Of a stretch of DNA of 64,000 bases, positions 16,270 to 40,428 are shown in pieces. Position 1 is the stretch's first letter. Every line of letters starts with the position of its first letter. Source of the stretch: Anaerolineae bacterium (lineage in GTDB: Bacteria; Chloroflexota; Anaerolineae; Aggregatilineales; Phototrophicaceae); NCBI GenBank assembly GCA_022825675.1, contig JAJDWK010000064.1:1-64000 (forward strand), read 5' to 3'. The notes under the pieces are model-generated. The model saw only the letters and a program-made list of their open reading frames with translations. It did no database searches and was not told where the DNA came from. Position numbers and translations under genes: made by a program.

Positions 16270-16370
16270 AGGCTCGCCTCATGCGCACTAACCTTGCCGC
16301 TTAGTATACACCGCTTTCGCCGCGCATCAAAATGCCCCTTTTGCTGGGGTAGCGCAATCGCATCAAATTA

Positions 16371-16395
16371 TTCACCACAGAGACACAGAAATAAT
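16371..16395. repeat. Copy of dispersed TTCACCACAGAGACACAGA-type repeat
   Basis: ATTATTCACCACAGAGACACAGAAA; related copies near 20541, 33861, 48667, 57791, 57889. Confidence 0.7.
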
Positions 16396-16427
16396 TACAA
16401 ATAAGTAATGCGAAATCGCGCCTCAAG

Positions 16428-16578
16428 CCCCCATCCCCCAGCCCCTTCGCCATCTCTATGGCGAAGTATCCCCAAAATGAGGGAAGGGGAGAATCCTCAG
16501 TGATTACAAGGGTTTTAAGCCCCTCCCTCTTTATGGGAAAATGCGCCATAGAGATGGCGCATGGGTTTGGGGTGGGGG
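16428..16578. repeat. MITE/REP-like nested inverted-repeat element
   Basis: Perfect 16-bp inverted pair CGCCATCTCTATGGCG (16448-16463) / CGCCATAGAGATGGCG (16544-16559) within longer imperfect C-rich arms (CCCCCATCCCCCAGCCCC... / ...GGGTTTGGGGTGGGGG). Confidence 0.8.
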
Positions 16579-18339: not shown

Positions 18340-19215
18340 TCAGCGCCCGTCACGGCGCAATGCGCCCATCATCGCCCGCAGCTGCGCTTTGAAGGCTTCC
18401 AGCTTCTCCGCGCTGCTCAAGCAGCGCAGCGGCACTGTCGGCATGCGCTCGGATTGCGCGGGCTTGAGCTGCGCCGACCGCGGCAGCAGGCGGTTGAGCG
18501 CAGCGAGCGCCTCGCTCCGCGCTGCCGGCTGGTCAAAGGGGCGGTGCCGCGCCAGCGCCTTCAAATGCACTTGCGCCGCCGGCTGCCGCCGATATGCCCA
18601 AACTGAAAATACTGTCAGCAGCCGCTGCCCCAGCCGCAAGCGTGCATGAAAGCCCGGCTGGACGCGCCCGCCAAAGTCCACTTCATCGGCGATGCCGCCC
18701 GCCCAATAGAACAGGTCCTGCGCCACCAGCTTGGCGGTCGCGCCCGCCGGCAGCTGCTGAAGATAGGGGAAAAAGTTCGATTCGGCTGGCAGGCGGGACA
18801 TCGCGGCGGCGCTGCCAGCGGGCGGGCTATCGACATCCGTCCAACTGTGGAGCGCGGCGAGCAAAGCCGTCAGCCCCCCGCTTGATGGGTCGCGCAGATC
18901 ACAATACTGGAAGTTGATGAGATGCAGCGGAATCAAGACATCGGCGACCAGCGCCGTAATCACCGGTTTCTTCAGCTGCATCGCATAAAGGCATTCGCGC
19001 TCGACCCAGGTGGAGGCGGCGCTGGAAGCGGAAAGTATCGTGACCACCGCGGCGCAGCGCTGAATGCCAGCTTCAATCTCGCAGAGCCAGTCAGCGCCGC
19101 CGCGGATATTCTCAAAATCGACCCAAACAGCATAGCCAGCGCGCTTCAAAGCGGCGGCTACCTGTGATGTCAGCGCGGTATCGCGGTTGCTGTGGCTGAT
19201 GAAAATGACAGGCAT
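18340..19215 (-). CDS. TIR-domain protein with uncharacterised C-terminal region
   Basis: MPVIFISHSNRDTALTSQVAAALKRAGYAVWVDFENIRGGADWLCEIEAGIQRCAAVVTILSASSAASTWVERECLYAMQLKKPVI. Confidence 0.88.
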   Translation of the reverse strand: MPVIFISHSNRDTALTSQVAAALKRAGYAVWVDFENIRGGADWLCEIEAGIQRCAAVVTILSASSAASTWVERECLYAMQLKKPVITALVADVLIPLHLINFQYCDLRDPSSGGLTALLAALHSWTDVDSPPAGSAAAMSRLPAESNFFPYLQQLPAGATAKLVAQDLFYWAGGIADEVDFGGRVQPGFHARLRLGQRLLTVFSVWAYRRQPAAQVHLKALARHRPFDQPAARSEALAALNRLLPRSAQLKPAQSERMPTVPLRCLSSAEKLEAFKAQLRAMMGALRRDGR

Positions 19216-20414: not shown

Positions 20415-20540
20415 AGGCGCTCGCATTCAGAATCAAATCGGCATATTGCCCGCGAGTATAGCATAGGCGCGCTGGCGTCTGGGCGAAGATAGGGTCGCGC
20501 TCCGCAAATGCTCAGGTATTCCAGCTACTTACTTGCACAT

Positions 20541-20575
20541 ACATCTGTGCCTCTGTGGTGAATAATGAATTATCA
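20541..20575. repeat. Copy (inverted orientation) of TTCACCACAGAGGCACAGA repeat
   Basis: ACATCTGTGCCTCTGTGGTGAATAATGAATTATCA. Confidence 0.65.
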
Positions 20576-32855: not shown

Positions 32856-33857
32856 CTACATGTCAGAGACATACACCACAGTTTCCGTCTCCAGCGACGC
32901 TATCGCCGCCGCCAGCACCTTCTGCGCCGCCAAGCCATCCGCGCCGCTGCCATCAATATCCGCCGGCGCGACCCCCGCGCTCACCTGCTGCAAAAAACAA
33001 TGAATGCGCTCGCGGAAGGTATTCTCAAAAGTGTGGAAGCCGCCGAAGAGCGGGTCGGTGTAGACCGTCTTCTGCAAATCTCCCGCGGGATAAAGCGTCA
33101 GCTCCCGCCACATATCATCCAGCACAAAGCGCCCGCCCGTGCCCGCCACCTCGCAGCGCTCCATCGGGTGCCCGCGCTCGATATCATAGCTGCCGGTCAG
33201 CGCGCCGACGACGCCATCCCGAAAGCGGAAATTGAACTGCGCCGTCGACCAAATCCGCCGCCCGGGCGCTTTGACCGCGAAGCAATGCACCGCCTCGATA
33301 TCGCCGCAGAAATAGCGCATCACATCCACCGTGTGCGGGTGCAGCGACTTGATGTGATAATGCGGCGAGGTCTCGGCGGGGTTCATTATCCACATCGCCA
33401 TGTTGATGAAGAGCAGATGCCCCAGGCGTCCATCTTCTATCCAGGATTTTGCCAGGCGCGCCGCCGGCGTGAAGCGGTGGTTGAGGTTGATGCCATAACA
33501 GCGCCCCAGTTCCCGCGCCCGCGCCACCATCGCTTCGGCATGCGGGATTTTGTCCGAAATCGGCTTCTCGCCCAAGACATGGCAGCCGGCTTCCAGCGCC
33601 TGCATCGTGGGCAGATAATGGTCGCTGCTGTTTTCATAGCCGCCAGTCGTCACGCTGACGACATCGGGCGCCAGCGCGCGCAGCATCTGCTCGGCATCAT
33701 AGAATGCGGGCGCGCCATGCCGCGCCGCCGCCGCGTCCGCCCGCTCTTTGCTGATATCGCAAACGCCGACAAGCTCCGCCAAGTCATCCTGCGCGTACAG
33801 TTTCGCATGCCGATTGCCAATTGGTCCCATGCCGATGACCGCTGTGCGTAGTGTCAT
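32856..33857 (-). CDS. Gfo/Idh/MocA family oxidoreductase
   Basis: MTLRTAVIGMGPIGNRHAKLYAQDDLAELVGVCD...LGEKPIS...NLNHRFTPAARLAK. Confidence 0.95.
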   Translation of the reverse strand: MTLRTAVIGMGPIGNRHAKLYAQDDLAELVGVCDISKERADAAAARHGAPAFYDAEQMLRALAPDVVSVTTGGYENSSDHYLPTMQALEAGCHVLGEKPISDKIPHAEAMVARARELGRCYGINLNHRFTPAARLAKSWIEDGRLGHLLFINMAMWIMNPAETSPHYHIKSLHPHTVDVMRYFCGDIEAVHCFAVKAPGRRIWSTAQFNFRFRDGVVGALTGSYDIERGHPMERCEVAGTGGRFVLDDMWRELTLYPAGDLQKTVYTDPLFGGFHTFENTFRERIHCFLQQVSAGVAPADIDGSGADGLAAQKVLAAAIASLETETVVYVSDM

Positions 33858-34662: not shown

Positions 34663-35663
34663 AGCGCAATCACCTGCCCGCTCTCCCAAGAGGCAATCGC
34701 CGCTTCAATCACCCGCTGCACATTCAGCGCGTCCGCCCCCGAAGCGTCGATTTTCTCGGGGGAGACCAGCGCCAGGTTCTGGTCTATCCAATGTCCGATG
34801 CGGCTTTGAAATGTCTGGCTGAAGTGGCTCATGCCGCCATAATTCTCATGCCGCTCCAGCTGGGTATCAAAGCGCGGATAAAAGGTCAATTCCTCGCAGG
34901 CGTCCCGCAGGATGAAGCGCCCCTCCGAGCCGACCACTTCCAATGTCTCCAGCCCATAAGTGCCGGCGGCGCCAAAATTGCCGTCATAACTGCCGCGCAG
35001 ATGCCCGATGACGCCATTTTCATAGAGCAGGTTCATCTGCATATTCGACCATATCGCGCGTCCCTTGCCCTTCTTGAAGAAAGCCTGCACCCGCTTGACA
35101 TCAGACTGAGCGAAATAGCGCATCACATCCAGCGAATGCGGATGCAAAGCGCGGGCGTGAAAATGCGGCGAGCTTTCGTTGGGGTTGTTGATCCACATCG
35201 TCATGTCAATCATGTTGATTTCGCCCAGCCGCCCGCGCAGCTGCCACTCTTTTGCCAGCGACGCCGCCGGCGTGAAGCGGTGGTTGAGGTTGATGCCATA
35301 ACGCAGGTTCTTCTCCCGCGCCAGCGCCACCATCGCCGCCGCTTCGTCAATGTTGTTGGATATCGGTTTTTCGCCCAGCACCGGGTAACCCGCGCCTAAA
35401 AGCTGCATCGTCGGCGTATAATGGTCGCCGCCATTTTCGACGCCAGCGGTGGTGACGCTGGCGGCGTCAAATTCCAGCCCGCTTGCCAGCAGCGCGTCCA
35501 CCGAATAAAAGCCCTGGCAGCCGAAGGTCTCCGCCGCTTTGTCCGAGCGCTCGGGGATGATGTCGCAGACGGCGACCACCTCCGCCCCCGGGTGCGCCGT
35601 ATAACAGCGCCCGTGATTGTTGCCGATGCCGCCCATGCCGATAATCGCTACGCGTAAAGTCAT
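34659..35663 (-). CDS. Gfo/Idh/MocA family oxidoreductase (second paralogue)
   Basis: MTLRVAIIGMGGIGNNHGRCYTAHPGAEVVAVCDI...VLGEKPISNN...NLNHRFTPAASLAKEW. Confidence 0.95.
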   Translation of the reverse strand: MTLRVAIIGMGGIGNNHGRCYTAHPGAEVVAVCDIIPERSDKAAETFGCQGFYSVDALLASGLEFDAASVTTAGVENGGDHYTPTMQLLGAGYPVLGEKPISNNIDEAAAMVALAREKNLRYGINLNHRFTPAASLAKEWQLRGRLGEINMIDMTMWINNPNESSPHFHARALHPHSLDVMRYFAQSDVKRVQAFFKKGKGRAIWSNMQMNLLYENGVIGHLRGSYDGNFGAAGTYGLETLEVVGSEGRFILRDACEELTFYPRFDTQLERHENYGGMSHFSQTFQSRIGHWIDQNLALVSPEKIDASGADALNVQRVIEAAIASWESGQVIAL

Positions 35664-35705: not shown

Positions 35706-37187
35706 CTATTGCTGCTCGTCTTCGGTCTCGCCCGCCTCGCGGGATTCCGCCTGCAGGCGGATCGCCTCGTTTAAATCGCCGATGTACAGCGTATCGTAGG
35801 CCTGCTGCGATGTCTCAAACGCGCCGATGCCTTCTGTGCCGTGCCAGTCGCCTTGCGTCAGCATCGGGTTGGGCAAGCCGGTTTCCGCCTCGCGCCTGGC
35901 GATGAAAGCCTCCATGCGCCCGCGCAAAGCGGCGACAACATCGGGGCGCGCCGCCGCCAGATTGTGGTTTTCTTCGGGGTCTTCCGCCAGGTTGTACAGC
36001 TCAACTTCCGGCTTGAAGTGGAAGTCCGGCTCCAGCGCTATCATCAGCTTCCAGCCGGGAGCGCGCCAGCCGTGCTTGCGCATCCAGGTGCATTCGCTGA
36101 TGTAAAACTCGCTCTCAAACGAGGCGATTTCGCCCGCAATCATCGGCAGCAGCGACTTGCCATCGAACCCCCGCCATGCCTTCTCCGCTAGCGCAGAGCT
36201 GCCGCTTTCCCGCTCCCCTTCCCTCTTTTGGGGATGGGGGGCAGCGTCCAAGCCCGCCAAATCCAGCAGCGTCGGCAGCAGGTCTTTGTGCTGGTTATAG
36301 CCGCTGACGCGCGCGCCGGCGGGAACCCGCGCCGGGTAGCGCAGTATCAGCGGCACATGCAGCACATTGTCATATATGCCGTGATGGTCAAACCAGCATT
36401 CGTGATCGTAGAGCGTCTCGCCATGGTCGCCATTCAAAGCGATGATGGTATCGTCCAGGATGCCCAGCCCTTCCAAAGTTTGGAAAATCGACTGCATGCA
36501 GGCGTCCATATAGGCGATTGCGCCATCATATTGGGCGATGATGTAATCCTTGTCGCTGATGCCCGGCGGCATCCAAGACTTAAAGAATGTGGCGAACGGC
36601 TTAAAAGCCAGGACTGGGTCCATCGAGCGGTTTTCGGGGTCGCATTCATCGCCGTGATAAAACATGCGCTCATACGGCTCCGGCGGCAGGTAGGGCGCGT
36701 GCGGGTCCATGTGCCGCAGCATCACGAACCAGGGCTTGTCCGCCGCTGTCAGCCGCGCCAGCTCGGGGATGGCGACTTCGTTGAGATTCTGCGCCTTGTG
36801 GCTGCGTCCCGCTTCCCAACTGCCCCAGGCGGCATAATCGATATAGGTGTCGAAGCCGCGCGAACTCGGGTTGCCGCTGAAGCCGACGCAGGCGGTGTTA
36901 TAACCTTGGCTGCGGAAGATCTCCGCCGCTGTCGGCGCTTCCGCCCGCAGCGGTCCTTGATGCCGCAGCGCCACCACCTGTGTGCCAAAGCAATCACGCC
37001 CGGTCAGCATCGAGGCGTAGGCGGGCGTGGTCGGGATGTGGGCGCTGAATGTATTTTCGAAGAGCGCGCCGCTTTGGGCGAAGCGGTCGATATGCGGCGT
37101 CGTCAAGCGCTCGTAGCCATAGCAGGACATGTGGTCGGCGCGGATTGAATCGATGGCGATAAGCAGGACATTTGGTTTTTTTGGCAT
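35706..37187 (-). CDS. Sulfatase-like hydrolase (alkaline phosphatase superfamily; no canonical FGly Cys)
   Basis: KKPNVLLIAIDSIRADHMSCYGYERLTTPHIDRFAQSG..., HIPTTPAYASMLTG, LNGDHGETLYDHECWFDHHGIYDNVLHVPLILRYP; TAAGGAGG RBS before ATG 37187. Confidence 0.92.
   Translation of the reverse strand: MPKKPNVLLIAIDSIRADHMSCYGYERLTTPHIDRFAQSGALFENTFSAHIPTTPAYASMLTGRDCFGTQVVALRHQGPLRAEAPTAAEIFRSQGYNTACVGFSGNPSSRGFDTYIDYAAWGSWEAGRSHKAQNLNEVAIPELARLTAADKPWFVMLRHMDPHAPYLPPEPYERMFYHGDECDPENRSMDPVLAFKPFATFFKSWMPPGISDKDYIIAQYDGAIAYMDACMQSIFQTLEGLGILDDTIIALNGDHGETLYDHECWFDHHGIYDNVLHVPLILRYPARVPAGARVSGYNQHKDLLPTLLDLAGLDAAPHPQKREGERESGSSALAEKAWRGFDGKSLLPMIAGEIASFESEFYISECTWMRKHGWRAPGWKLMIALEPDFHFKPEVELYNLAEDPEENHNLAAARPDVVAALRGRMEAFIARREAETGLPNPMLTQGDWHGTEGIGAFETSQQAYDTLYIGDLNEAIRLQAESREAGETEDEQQ
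36206..36240. repeat. C-rich hairpin repeat copy located inside the sulfatase-like CDS
   Basis: Minus strand CCCCCATCCCCAAAAGAGGGAAGGGGAGCGGGAAAG; close to CCCCAAAATGAGGGAAGGGGAG at 16470-16491 and to 39386-39426. Confidence 0.7.
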
Positions 37188-37301
37188 AGCTCCCTCCTTA
37201 AGTATCGCGGGAAGTCTAGCACATCCGCCTAAGGCCTGCGACAAATCTGCCAGCGAGCGCCGCGGTACATTTAGCCGCTTCCCGCAAGTTCGCGCTATCA
37301 T

Positions 37302-37317
37302 AAGTAACCGATTACTT
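37302..37317. promoter_or_regulatory. LacI-family-type operator candidate in divergent promoter region
   Basis: AAGTAACCGATTACTT, near-perfect palindrome fitting the AAnCGnTT core of LacI-family operators. Confidence 0.5.
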
Positions 37318-37419
37318 GCGCAATCGCAAATATGCGATAAGCTATTTAGCATGCGCCCAAGTGGGCATTTGCGGGCTGACGCTCGCGCAATTTCTATCCA
37401 AAGACTTAGGAGTGCTGCC

Positions 37420-39354
37420 ATGTTACGAAAACTTGTATTTCTCGCCTTATTGGCGCTGATAGCGCTGCCGACGCTTGTCGGCTTCGCGCAGGAGCCCGAT
37501 GGCTTGCCCGTCGATATCCCGCGTGAAGACCTCTGGGTCTTCGACCAAATCTTCCGCTGGCAGACCGTGAACAACTTCAATGTCTGGCGCATCGGCGGCT
37601 CGACGCCTTTTCATCATGCCTTGATGCTGGAGACATTCTGGAATCGCGACCAGGAAACGGGCGAATTCATCCATGCGCTGGCGGCGGCTGACCCCGTCTA
37701 CAACGATGACTTCACGCAAATGTCGGTGGAGCTGCGCCCCGGCGTCATGTGGTCTGATGGCGAAGAATTCAACGCCGATGATGTTGTCTATACTATCGAG
37801 ACCATCAAAGCCAACCCCGAATTGGGGCAGGGCGGCTGGCATGCGCAATTGACGGACTTTGACGCCGCTGTCGAAAAGACTGGCGATTACAGCGTCAGCT
37901 TCACGCTTAACCGCTCCAACCCGCGCTTCCACACCCTCTTCGAATCCCGCTGGAATGGCATTTATATGATGCCGTCGCATATCGTGGCGGAAGTCGAAGC
38001 CAACCTGGCGGATGGCGAGAACCTCGGCGGCTGGGTCTGGGAAGCGCAGGATGTGGTTGTCCTGGGCAATTACCTGCCAGTAGAAGCGGACCCCAACGGC
38101 TACTGGGAGCTCTTCAAACGCCGCGACGACCCCGAAAATTCGCTGGCGGGCATCATCACCGGCGGTTCCGGCCCTCCCTATGCTTTGAGCATTTTCTACG
38201 GCAACGACAACATCAAAAAAGCCATCGCCATGTCCCGCAACGAGCTTGATGTCTATTTTGATGTTGATATCGAATCCTTCGATTTCACGCTGGAGAACGC
38301 GCCTGCCGCCCGCAGTTGGTATCAAGACTTCCCCTGGGCGTATCCCAACGAAGTCAGCAGCCGTCAACTGGCGATGAATATGGAAGGCGACCCGCTGATC
38401 GCCCATAAGGATGTGCGCTGGGCGCTGGCGCTCGCCATCGATATTGTCGAATTGCAGACCGAATACATCGGCGGCGTCGCCAAGGTAACGCCCTTTCCCG
38501 TCCCGCCGACCGCCAAGCTCTATGAGCTGTACCACGGTCCCATGACCGAATGGCTGAGCAACCTGCAAATCGACCTCGGCGGCGGCGAAATGTACAGCCC
38601 CTATGACCCAAGCATCCCCGACCAAATCGCGGCTTGGGCGGAAGAACAGGGCTTCACCGTGCCGGGCGAGCCGCACGAAGTCTTCGGCTCCGGCTGGTGG
38701 AAATACGATACCGACGCTGCCGAGAAGCTGCTGATGAACGCGGGCTTGAGCCGCGGCGGCGATGGCATGTGGATGACGCCAGAAGGCGAGCCCTGGGTGC
38801 TGGACCTGCAGTCTGACCCCAGCGAGAATGACGCCTACCGTATGGGGCAGGCGGCATTTGATATGTGGACTGACTTCGGCATCGAAGTCAACTTCAGCAC
38901 GCTGGACCGCAACACCTGGAACCAGAACCACTATGTCGGCGAGTATGAGGTCAGCACGCCTTGGACGAGCTTCGCGCTGGCTTCCGGCGATATGTGGCCC
39001 AACATCCGCGGCCGCCACTCCCGTTATTACGCGCCGGTGGGCGAAGATTACCGCCCGCTGGGCGGCGACAGCGTGCGCCGCTTGCAAGACGCCCGCAGCG
39101 ACGAGCTGATTGACGCCATGGAATCGGTCAACCCCGTGGCGCAAGAGGCGGAGAATATCGAGCTCGGCATCCAATTCCTGCAGAATTGGGTGGAAAATAT
39201 GTTCGATATCACCTGCATCGCTTTCAAGAAATTCGTCACCTGGGACGAGACCTACTGGACGGGCTTCCCGACTGCCGAGAACCCGAACTATCAGCCATTG
39301 TATTGGTTCCAGGGCGGCAAATACGCCATCCAGAACCTGCATCCGACGGGCTAG
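37420..39354 (+). CDS. Peptide/oligosaccharide ABC transporter substrate-binding protein (family 5)
   Basis: Signal peptide MLRKLVFLALLALIALPTLVGFAQ; SBP_bac_5 pattern (ELRPGVMWSDGEEFNADDVVYTIETIKANPE). Start ATG 37420. Confidence 0.92.
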   Translation: MLRKLVFLALLALIALPTLVGFAQEPDGLPVDIPREDLWVFDQIFRWQTVNNFNVWRIGGSTPFHHALMLETFWNRDQETGEFIHALAAADPVYNDDFTQMSVELRPGVMWSDGEEFNADDVVYTIETIKANPELGQGGWHAQLTDFDAAVEKTGDYSVSFTLNRSNPRFHTLFESRWNGIYMMPSHIVAEVEANLADGENLGGWVWEAQDVVVLGNYLPVEADPNGYWELFKRRDDPENSLAGIITGGSGPPYALSIFYGNDNIKKAIAMSRNELDVYFDVDIESFDFTLENAPAARSWYQDFPWAYPNEVSSRQLAMNMEGDPLIAHKDVRWALALAIDIVELQTEYIGGVAKVTPFPVPPTAKLYELYHGPMTEWLSNLQIDLGGGEMYSPYDPSIPDQIAAWAEEQGFTVPGEPHEVFGSGWWKYDTDAAEKLLMNAGLSRGGDGMWMTPEGEPWVLDLQSDPSENDAYRMGQAAFDMWTDFGIEVNFSTLDRNTWNQNHYVGEYEVSTPWTSFALASGDMWPNIRGRHSRYYAPVGEDYRPLGGDSVRRLQDARSDELIDAMESVNPVAQEAENIELGIQFLQNWVENMFDITCIAFKKFVTWDETYWTGFPTAENPNYQPLYWFQGGKYAIQNLHPTG

Positions 39355-39385
39355 CCTGGCTAGCTGCCTCCCTATAGTAGAAACT

Positions 39386-39426
39386 CCCCTTCCCTCCTTG
39401 TGGGGGAAGGGGTTGGGGGATGGGGG
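39386..39426. repeat. C-rich dispersed hairpin repeat between SBP and permease genes
   Basis: CCCCTTCCC(TCCTTGTGG)GGGAAGGGG followed by TTGGGGGATGGGGG. Confidence 0.7.
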
Positions 39427-39429
39427 ATT

Positions 39430-40428
39430 ATGCAACTGCTGCGCACTTACATTCTGCCGCGCATCGTCCAGTGGGCGGTGGTCATCTTCGTCGGCGTCAC
39501 GATTATTTTCTTGATACCGCGCTTTTCGCCCATCAACCCCGTTGACGACATGATCGGGCGCATGACCGCCTTCCAGACGATGGACCCGCAAGCGGTTGTG
39601 CTCATGCGCGCGACTATGCAAGACCTCTACGGCTTGGACGGCAGCTTGCTGGAACAGTACATCAATTTTTGGCAGCGGCTGCTGCAGGGCGACCTCGGTC
39701 CTTCATTTCAAAATTTCCCCACGCCGGTCAACGAAATTATTGCCGCGGGCTTGCCCTGGACCGTCGGCTTGTTAACGACTTCCACGATTATGTCCTGGCT
39801 GCTGGGCATATTTGTTGGCTCGCTGGTGGGCTATTTCCAGCATCGGCGCTGGGCGCAGGTATTAGAAAGAGTTGTCATCGTAATATATCCCACGCCTTAT
39901 GTCATTATTGCGCTTATCCTTATGGTGCTGTTCACCTTTTATTGGCCCATTTTCCCGATGGTGGGCGGCGCGCAAGGCAAACCCGCGCTGAATTGGGAAT
40001 ACATCAGCAGCATTTTGCGCTTCGGCTTTTTGCCGGCTTTATCCATCGTGATTGGCGGCTTCGCCTTCCGCTTCATCATCGCCAAAGCGCTCGCCACCAC
40101 CGAAATTGCCAGCGACTATGTGCAATATGCGGAGCTGGCGGCAGTGCCCAAGCGGCGCATCGTCTATTCGTATATCATCCGCAATACCATGCTGCCCCAT
40201 GTCAATGACCTGGCGCTGTCGCTGGGCGCCATGTTTGAAGGCGCGCTGATAACCGAAGTGGTTTTTGGCTATCCCGGGCTTGGCTCCAAGCTCTTCACCG
40301 CTATCAGCAATGCTGATTACAATATCGTCATGGGCATTGTATTGCTTTCCATTGTCGGCATCGCCACCGGCTCGCTGATTGTGGACCTGCTGTACCCCGT
40401 CTTTGATCCCCGTGTTCGGCTGCGTTAG
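39430..40428 (+). CDS. ABC transporter permease (DppB-type)
   Basis: MQLLRTYILPRIVQWAVVIFVGVTIIFLIPR...; EAA-like loop AELAAVPKRRIVYSYIIRNTMLPHV. Confidence 0.92.
   Translation: MQLLRTYILPRIVQWAVVIFVGVTIIFLIPRFSPINPVDDMIGRMTAFQTMDPQAVVLMRATMQDLYGLDGSLLEQYINFWQRLLQGDLGPSFQNFPTPVNEIIAAGLPWTVGLLTTSTIMSWLLGIFVGSLVGYFQHRRWAQVLERVVIVIYPTPYVIIALILMVLFTFYWPIFPMVGGAQGKPALNWEYISSILRFGFLPALSIVIGGFAFRFIIAKALATTEIASDYVQYAELAAVPKRRIVYSYIIRNTMLPHVNDLALSLGAMFEGALITEVVFGYPGLGSKLFTAISNADYNIVMGIVLLSIVGIATGSLIVDLLYPVFDPRVRLR

Follow-up and report, generated by a model that had tools for sequence, protein, structure and literature searches.

The window (the whole stretch of 64,000 nucleotides that was analysed) contains on its minus strand a gene for a protein of the sulfatase/alkaline-phosphatase superfamily, interrupted in frame by a short stretch derived from a dispersed palindromic repeat. 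The features of the window concerned are the following:

35706-37187, minus strand: host gene, encoding a 493-aa PF00884 (sulfatase/alkaline-phosphatase superfamily) protein, identified by Pfam (E 7.7e-51) and by orthologues
~36168-36241 (74 nt), minus strand: repeat-derived insert bordered by LLDLAGLDAA and FDGKSL, delimited by orthologue comparison and pLDDT
36213-36240, minus strand: recognisable element arm in R orientation, CCCCCATCCCC-(15 nt missing)-AAAAGAGGGAAGGGGAG, 27/28 identity
16428-16578, minus strand: full-length element with an extended hairpin and the shared spacer CCTTGTAATCAC, lying inside a longer repeat (R1 E 2.4e-9)
39384-39426, plus strand: single-arm (half) element between a binding-protein gene and the downstream permease gene

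Dozens of intact orthologues of the host gene are present in Chloroflexota and other phyla, and the Foldseek matches of the AlphaFold model of its product (pTM 0.81, mean pLDDT 72.5) are phosphonate monoester hydrolases and sulfatases. The assignment to the sulfatase family in the earlier note holds for the PF00884 fold, but the Cys/Ser nucleophile motif is apparently missing. The C/S-x-P-S/A-R motif is absent from the host protein, where the region reads HIPTTPAYASMLTG. The region which usually contains Cys/Ser-x-Pro-x-Arg is PTTPAYASMLTG, and for this reason its identity as a formylglycine sulfatase is in doubt. Residues T53, T54 and Y57 are invariant across 46 aligned sequences. Judging from the sequence, the enzyme has a sulfatase fold and may not be a formylglycine sulfatase.

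On the coding strand the gene reads ...GGCTTGGACGCTG|CCCCCCATCCCCAAAAGAGGGAAGGGGAGCGGG...GGCGGGGG|TTCGATGGC... at the loop. The stretch between LLDLAGLDAA and FDGKSL contains CCCCCATCCCCAAAAGAGGGAAGGGGAG, and the predicted translation is LLDLAGLDAA-PHPQKREGERESGSSALAEKAWRG-FDGKSL. A repeat had been reported at 36206-36240; it is indeed present and in frame, but its extent had to be redrawn to the limits listed above. The arm is identical to the element arm in 27 of 28 bases across one clean 15-nt deletion. The far end of the copy is decayed, and after its deletion the copy no longer folds as a strong hairpin (z -0.66). In the AlphaFold model residues 316-339 have pLDDT values below 50; they follow a helix (300-310) and precede the FDG segment. 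The inserted peptide may be translated and tolerated by the host protein as a flexible loop. A described Rfam structured RNA family was also considered for the insert and rejected, as a search of 35900-39600 gave no match over it.

The repeat itself is real and dispersed: in the 3.66-Mb genome its arm core CTCCCCTTCCCTC occurs at 48 exact and 24 one-mismatch places, while the reversed-pattern control gave 1 and 0. Presence elsewhere in the genome, on which the earlier proposal depended, is thereby established, and the resemblance to the copies at 16.4 kb and 39.38 kb was as described. The full element is ~97-116 nt long and consists of two complementary arms of ~42 nt each around a variable spacer; full copies read CCCCCACCCTAAATCCCTCCCCCATAAAGAGGGAGGGACTT, variable spacer, then CTCCCCTTCCCTCATTTTGGGGGAAGGGGCTGGGGGATGGGGG. 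Since the arms are mutually complementary, the whole element forms a single imperfect palindrome whose loop is the spacer. The spacer measures 13-32 nt in most copies paired by the search and ~39 nt in some coding R copies. In computed folding each single arm is also able to fold on itself, and the full element surpasses shuffled sequences in folding (z -2.5).

A covariance model gave 65 matches in this genome with both strands counted, which represent about 50 places rather than 65, since many places, being palindromic, were matched on both strands. Matches were found in all 34 congeners, and in other members of the same family and order their number ranges from zero to more than 60 per genome. 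The copy census was compiled from searches and fetched stretches of the genome. Copies in two groups have spacers and long flanks in common and are apparently carried along by longer repeats; in most solo copies the spacer is peculiar to that copy. Elements are frequent at contig ends. The gap between the binding-protein and permease genes, upstream of the sulfatase-fold gene, seems to hold an element in several congeners too (L061:2727, L063:2713, L065:2704, L070:8711), with varying orientation and completeness.

Orthologues of the sulfatase-fold gene were compared at loci from 30 genus genomes (the window's included) and at 80 further loci, some from the same genomes. Most have a linker of 5-10 residues at the insert site, in agreement with the earlier statement that sulfatases are normally contiguous there. 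The full element is in frame at the same codon boundary in four congeners, at loci L061, L065, L064 and L067 (genomes G007, G003, G014 and G018). This, together with the genome-wide dispersal, supports the in-frame repeat insertion. These carriers are 28-35 codons longer than the shortest form, and the predicted translation of their inserts is PHPKSLPHAEGGTS...GSPSLDMGEGAGGWG or a near variant. The looped orthologues thus hold the repeat at the nucleotide level, and the objection that the same loop might occur without nucleotide resemblance fails. In L058 (G019) the contig ends inside an element at the same site.

The carriers are scattered on the tree and have near neighbours without the insert (L068 beside L065, L069 beside L058). 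On a tree built without the insert columns the insert label changes 6 times, and at least 4 of these changes are forced by well-supported branches. Among carrier pairs (window excluded) insert identity is 0.75-0.86 versus 0.57-0.83 at fourfold sites, a less clear picture than that of the XDH inserts described below. Arm conservation is not uniform, because between L061 and L065 insert identity (0.84) is below gene identity (0.93). In its borders, the junction GACGCTGCC among them, the window copy agrees with the full element of L061; it carries the reverse-complement arm, in the orientation opposite to the congeners' copies at the same site. The window gene and that of L061 have an identity of 0.97 in the left flank, across the 20 codons that precede the insert, against 0.81 for the genes overall; this may reflect one short local transfer rather than a new insertion.

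In the window's genome in-frame copies were shown in at least four other genes, encoding a xanthine-dehydrogenase-like (XDH-like) protein (two copies), an Eco57I-type methylase, a sortilin/BNR-repeat protein and a type ISP enzyme. Every coding copy examined is in the 'PHP' reading frame, which is predicted to give a Pro/Gly-rich linker. This frame is used though another is open in much of the element, in a within-genome sample that is small. In L193, L198 (plus strand), L214 and L249 several long ORFs span elements; they look like antisense or spurious frames and were left out of the count. Two DNA-modification enzymes of this genome, at L198:1444-5010 and L251:2-1813, have in-frame palindromic inserts.

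The second enzyme followed through the genus lies elsewhere in the same genome:

L203:719-3487 (G000:C74): XDH-like gene with two loop sites; its orthologues (L253-L282) have different palindromic inserts in most congeners

Orthologues of this gene above threshold were found in 29 of 34 genomes, and the two turns were compared across 26 congeners. Site S1 follows EPEAxxAYP and site S2 precedes VKVIIDHGW. Against solved aldehyde oxidoreductases the first insert is an alignment gap, and the second lies between two aligned stretches. Both sites are found empty (a few residues), with the element forward, reversed or shortened, or with a second palindrome family of the same plan (CCCCCCTAAATCCCCCC...GGGGGG; predicted peptide TPPKSPPTSQGG). 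The state counts are approximate, as automatic labels file some second-family copies as 'short' (L255, L261). On the gene tree S1 shows 19 state changes (minimum 5, shuffled mean 16.5), and its state is therefore unrelated to ancestry; S2 is somewhat more clustered (12 changes versus 14.3 in shuffles). The spacers at S1 and S2 fall into few homologous classes spread over lineages. Insertions were thus fewer than the occupied species, and they would then have been redistributed, lost or replaced among lineages.

Near pairs that differ in S1 state, e.g. L261 with and L262 without an insert, have a flank DNA identity similar to that found elsewhere in the gene, so that the change is confined to the loop. 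Import of long segments from other species as the source of the changing XDH loops is for this reason not supported. The flanks of species with a common allele are only slightly above average identity.

Within three groups of XDH inserts, each group having homologous spacers, the arms differ at 33 of 745 positions (4%) and the spacers at 37 of 195 (19%; P = 5e-10, from compared pairs that are not independent). Sites in third-position phase within the arms differ in at most 16 of 252, and fourfold sites of the same genes differ by 31-42% (identity 0.58-0.69). The contrast of 4% with 31-42% indicates that the arms are kept near-uniform at the DNA level. Uniform arms would be expected alike if copies were homogenised, if elements were re-inserted or if the palindrome were under selection. 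A simple G-quadruplex motif is present in 12 of the 32 XDH inserts.

The window copy is very probably an inverted and internally deleted copy of a dispersed, non-autonomous palindromic element, situated in frame in a permissive surface loop. The insert is rich in G/C runs, and one could imagine that a C/G-rich coding stretch merely resembles a low-complexity repeat by chance. Such a likeness is hardly credible: the arm-match score of the window copy was reached by none of 2000 shuffles, the core has 72 places versus 1 in the control, and four congeners carry the full element at this site, which refutes it. That repeat reads were misjoined into the gene during assembly is very improbable; elements do often lie at contig ends, as in L058, but in many separate assemblies the inserts stay in frame and have spacers and junctions of their own. 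One ancient insertion in the ancestor of the genus, inherited vertically and since modified by decay, deletion and loss, would explain the homologous spacers of several species at S1 and S2 and the left junction common to the window and L061. Such a history is unlikely in view of the arms, which differ far less than fourfold sites, of the presence of both orientations and of the second palindrome family at the same site, and of the S1 states, whose scatter over the tree equals that of randomly assigned labels.

New insertions made independently by a dedicated, site-preferring transposase, in the manner of REP/RAYT, are rather unlikely. The discrete ends of the element, its high copy number, the several families and the two orientations all fit such an enzyme. 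Y1_Tnp (PF01797), however, gave 0 matches in this genome (G000) and none in the insert carriers G003, G007, G014, G018 and G019, and is sporadic in other congeners; these are fragmented draft MAGs, in which a transposase or some copies may be missed. RAYT/Y1 mobilisation in this genome was rejected on these grounds. Moreover, no obvious target-site duplication or common target motif was seen on reading the flanks, the solo copies mostly have their own spacers, and the linker codons of empty orthologues are missing beside the inserts.

Because relatives carry an intact, inverted, other or no repeat at the same codon position of two enzymes, the loops probably act as recurrent landing or exchange sites. 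Selection would purge insertions unless they fall in loops that can accommodate a flexible linker, and such loops would become slots in which local events over short tracts could lead to gain, inversion, deletion, loss or exchange of copies. We infer the manner of movement: the likeliest route, tentatively favoured, is recombination or replication template switching between the hairpin-forming arms, with homogenisation of the arms among dispersed copies. Alternatively, a transposase could act in trans. No benefit to the enzyme is required by this explanation. It has also been considered that the enzyme loops are exchangeable slots, in which cassettes of two families and both orientations would be swapped, inverted and removed at fixed codon borders with undisturbed flanks, a dedicated or template-switch mechanism would keep the arms uniform genome-wide, and linker turnover would be faster than species divergence. 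As a whole, this is rather unlikely.

The closest known systems are the Rickettsia palindromic elements (RPE) and the Wolbachia protein-coding palindromes (Ogata et al. 2000, 2002, 2005; reviewed in PMC2229807 and PMC10969869). RPEs are likewise dispersed palindromes of ~100-150 bp, found between genes and in frame in genes for unrelated conserved proteins, to which they add a peptide, and a mobiliser is not known for them either. The present element is dispersed between and inside genes, keeps the frame in several unrelated conserved proteins and has insert-free orthologues. By analogy of behaviour, and not by homology, it would belong in the RPE-like protein-coding palindromic class. It differs from RPE in belonging to another phylum and in its G/C-run sequence, the likeness being one of behaviour. 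In addition, the same loops are filled genus-wide here, in both orientations and by two families, and the conservation of arms against spacer drift was measured.

Intragenic REP/BIME elements of the GTAG and CGTC type form hairpins inside ORFs, often as inverted pairs, and in two Xanthomonas species recB carries REPs at roughly the same position (PMC3733652), which is a precedent for same-site occupancy. The present element is, in contrast, a larger unit, and there is no RAYT (Y1_Tnp) gene in the genome. In the consensus of ten full copies the GTAG/CGTC tag is absent beside the hairpins. Bacterial MITEs (the 107-bp Correia type, ERIC, Coxiella QMITE1) are similar in being small non-autonomous inverted-repeat elements for which in-frame fusion is possible; the present element has terminal inverted arms, and no target-site duplication was seen on reading the junctions.

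Descriptions of selfish palindromes within genes have so far come chiefly from Rickettsia, Wolbachia and a small number of REP-rich bacteria. What is new here is the family in Chloroflexota, the recurrent occupation of fixed loops throughout a genus, and the contrast between arms nearly frozen at the DNA level and a coding spacer that drifts. No earlier report from Chloroflexota was found in the literature searched, whose coverage mostly excludes subscription journals. At the same codons the 34 congeneric genomes range from empty sites to full, inverted or deleted copies and replacements, so that gain, loss and exchange can be tested.

Several other features of the window were observed. Another inverted pair (ATTATTCACCACAGAGACACAG..., 83% complementary) lies at 16367-16407 and 20526-20566 around ordinary genes, and the palindromic element at 16428-16578 adjoins one of its arms. 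A minus-strand ORF at 18340-19215 starts MPVIFISHSNRDTALTSQVAAALKRAGYAVWVDFENI and is TIR domain-like in appearance. Degenerate coding-like repeats with periods of 6 to 18 bases (GGCGTxxxCGTCGC type) occupy 113-1091. Direct repeats 1803 bases apart are found at 33309-33499 and 35112-35302, one stretch being 94% identical over 53 nt; they lie within apparent tandem oxidoreductase paralogues and may reflect gene conversion.
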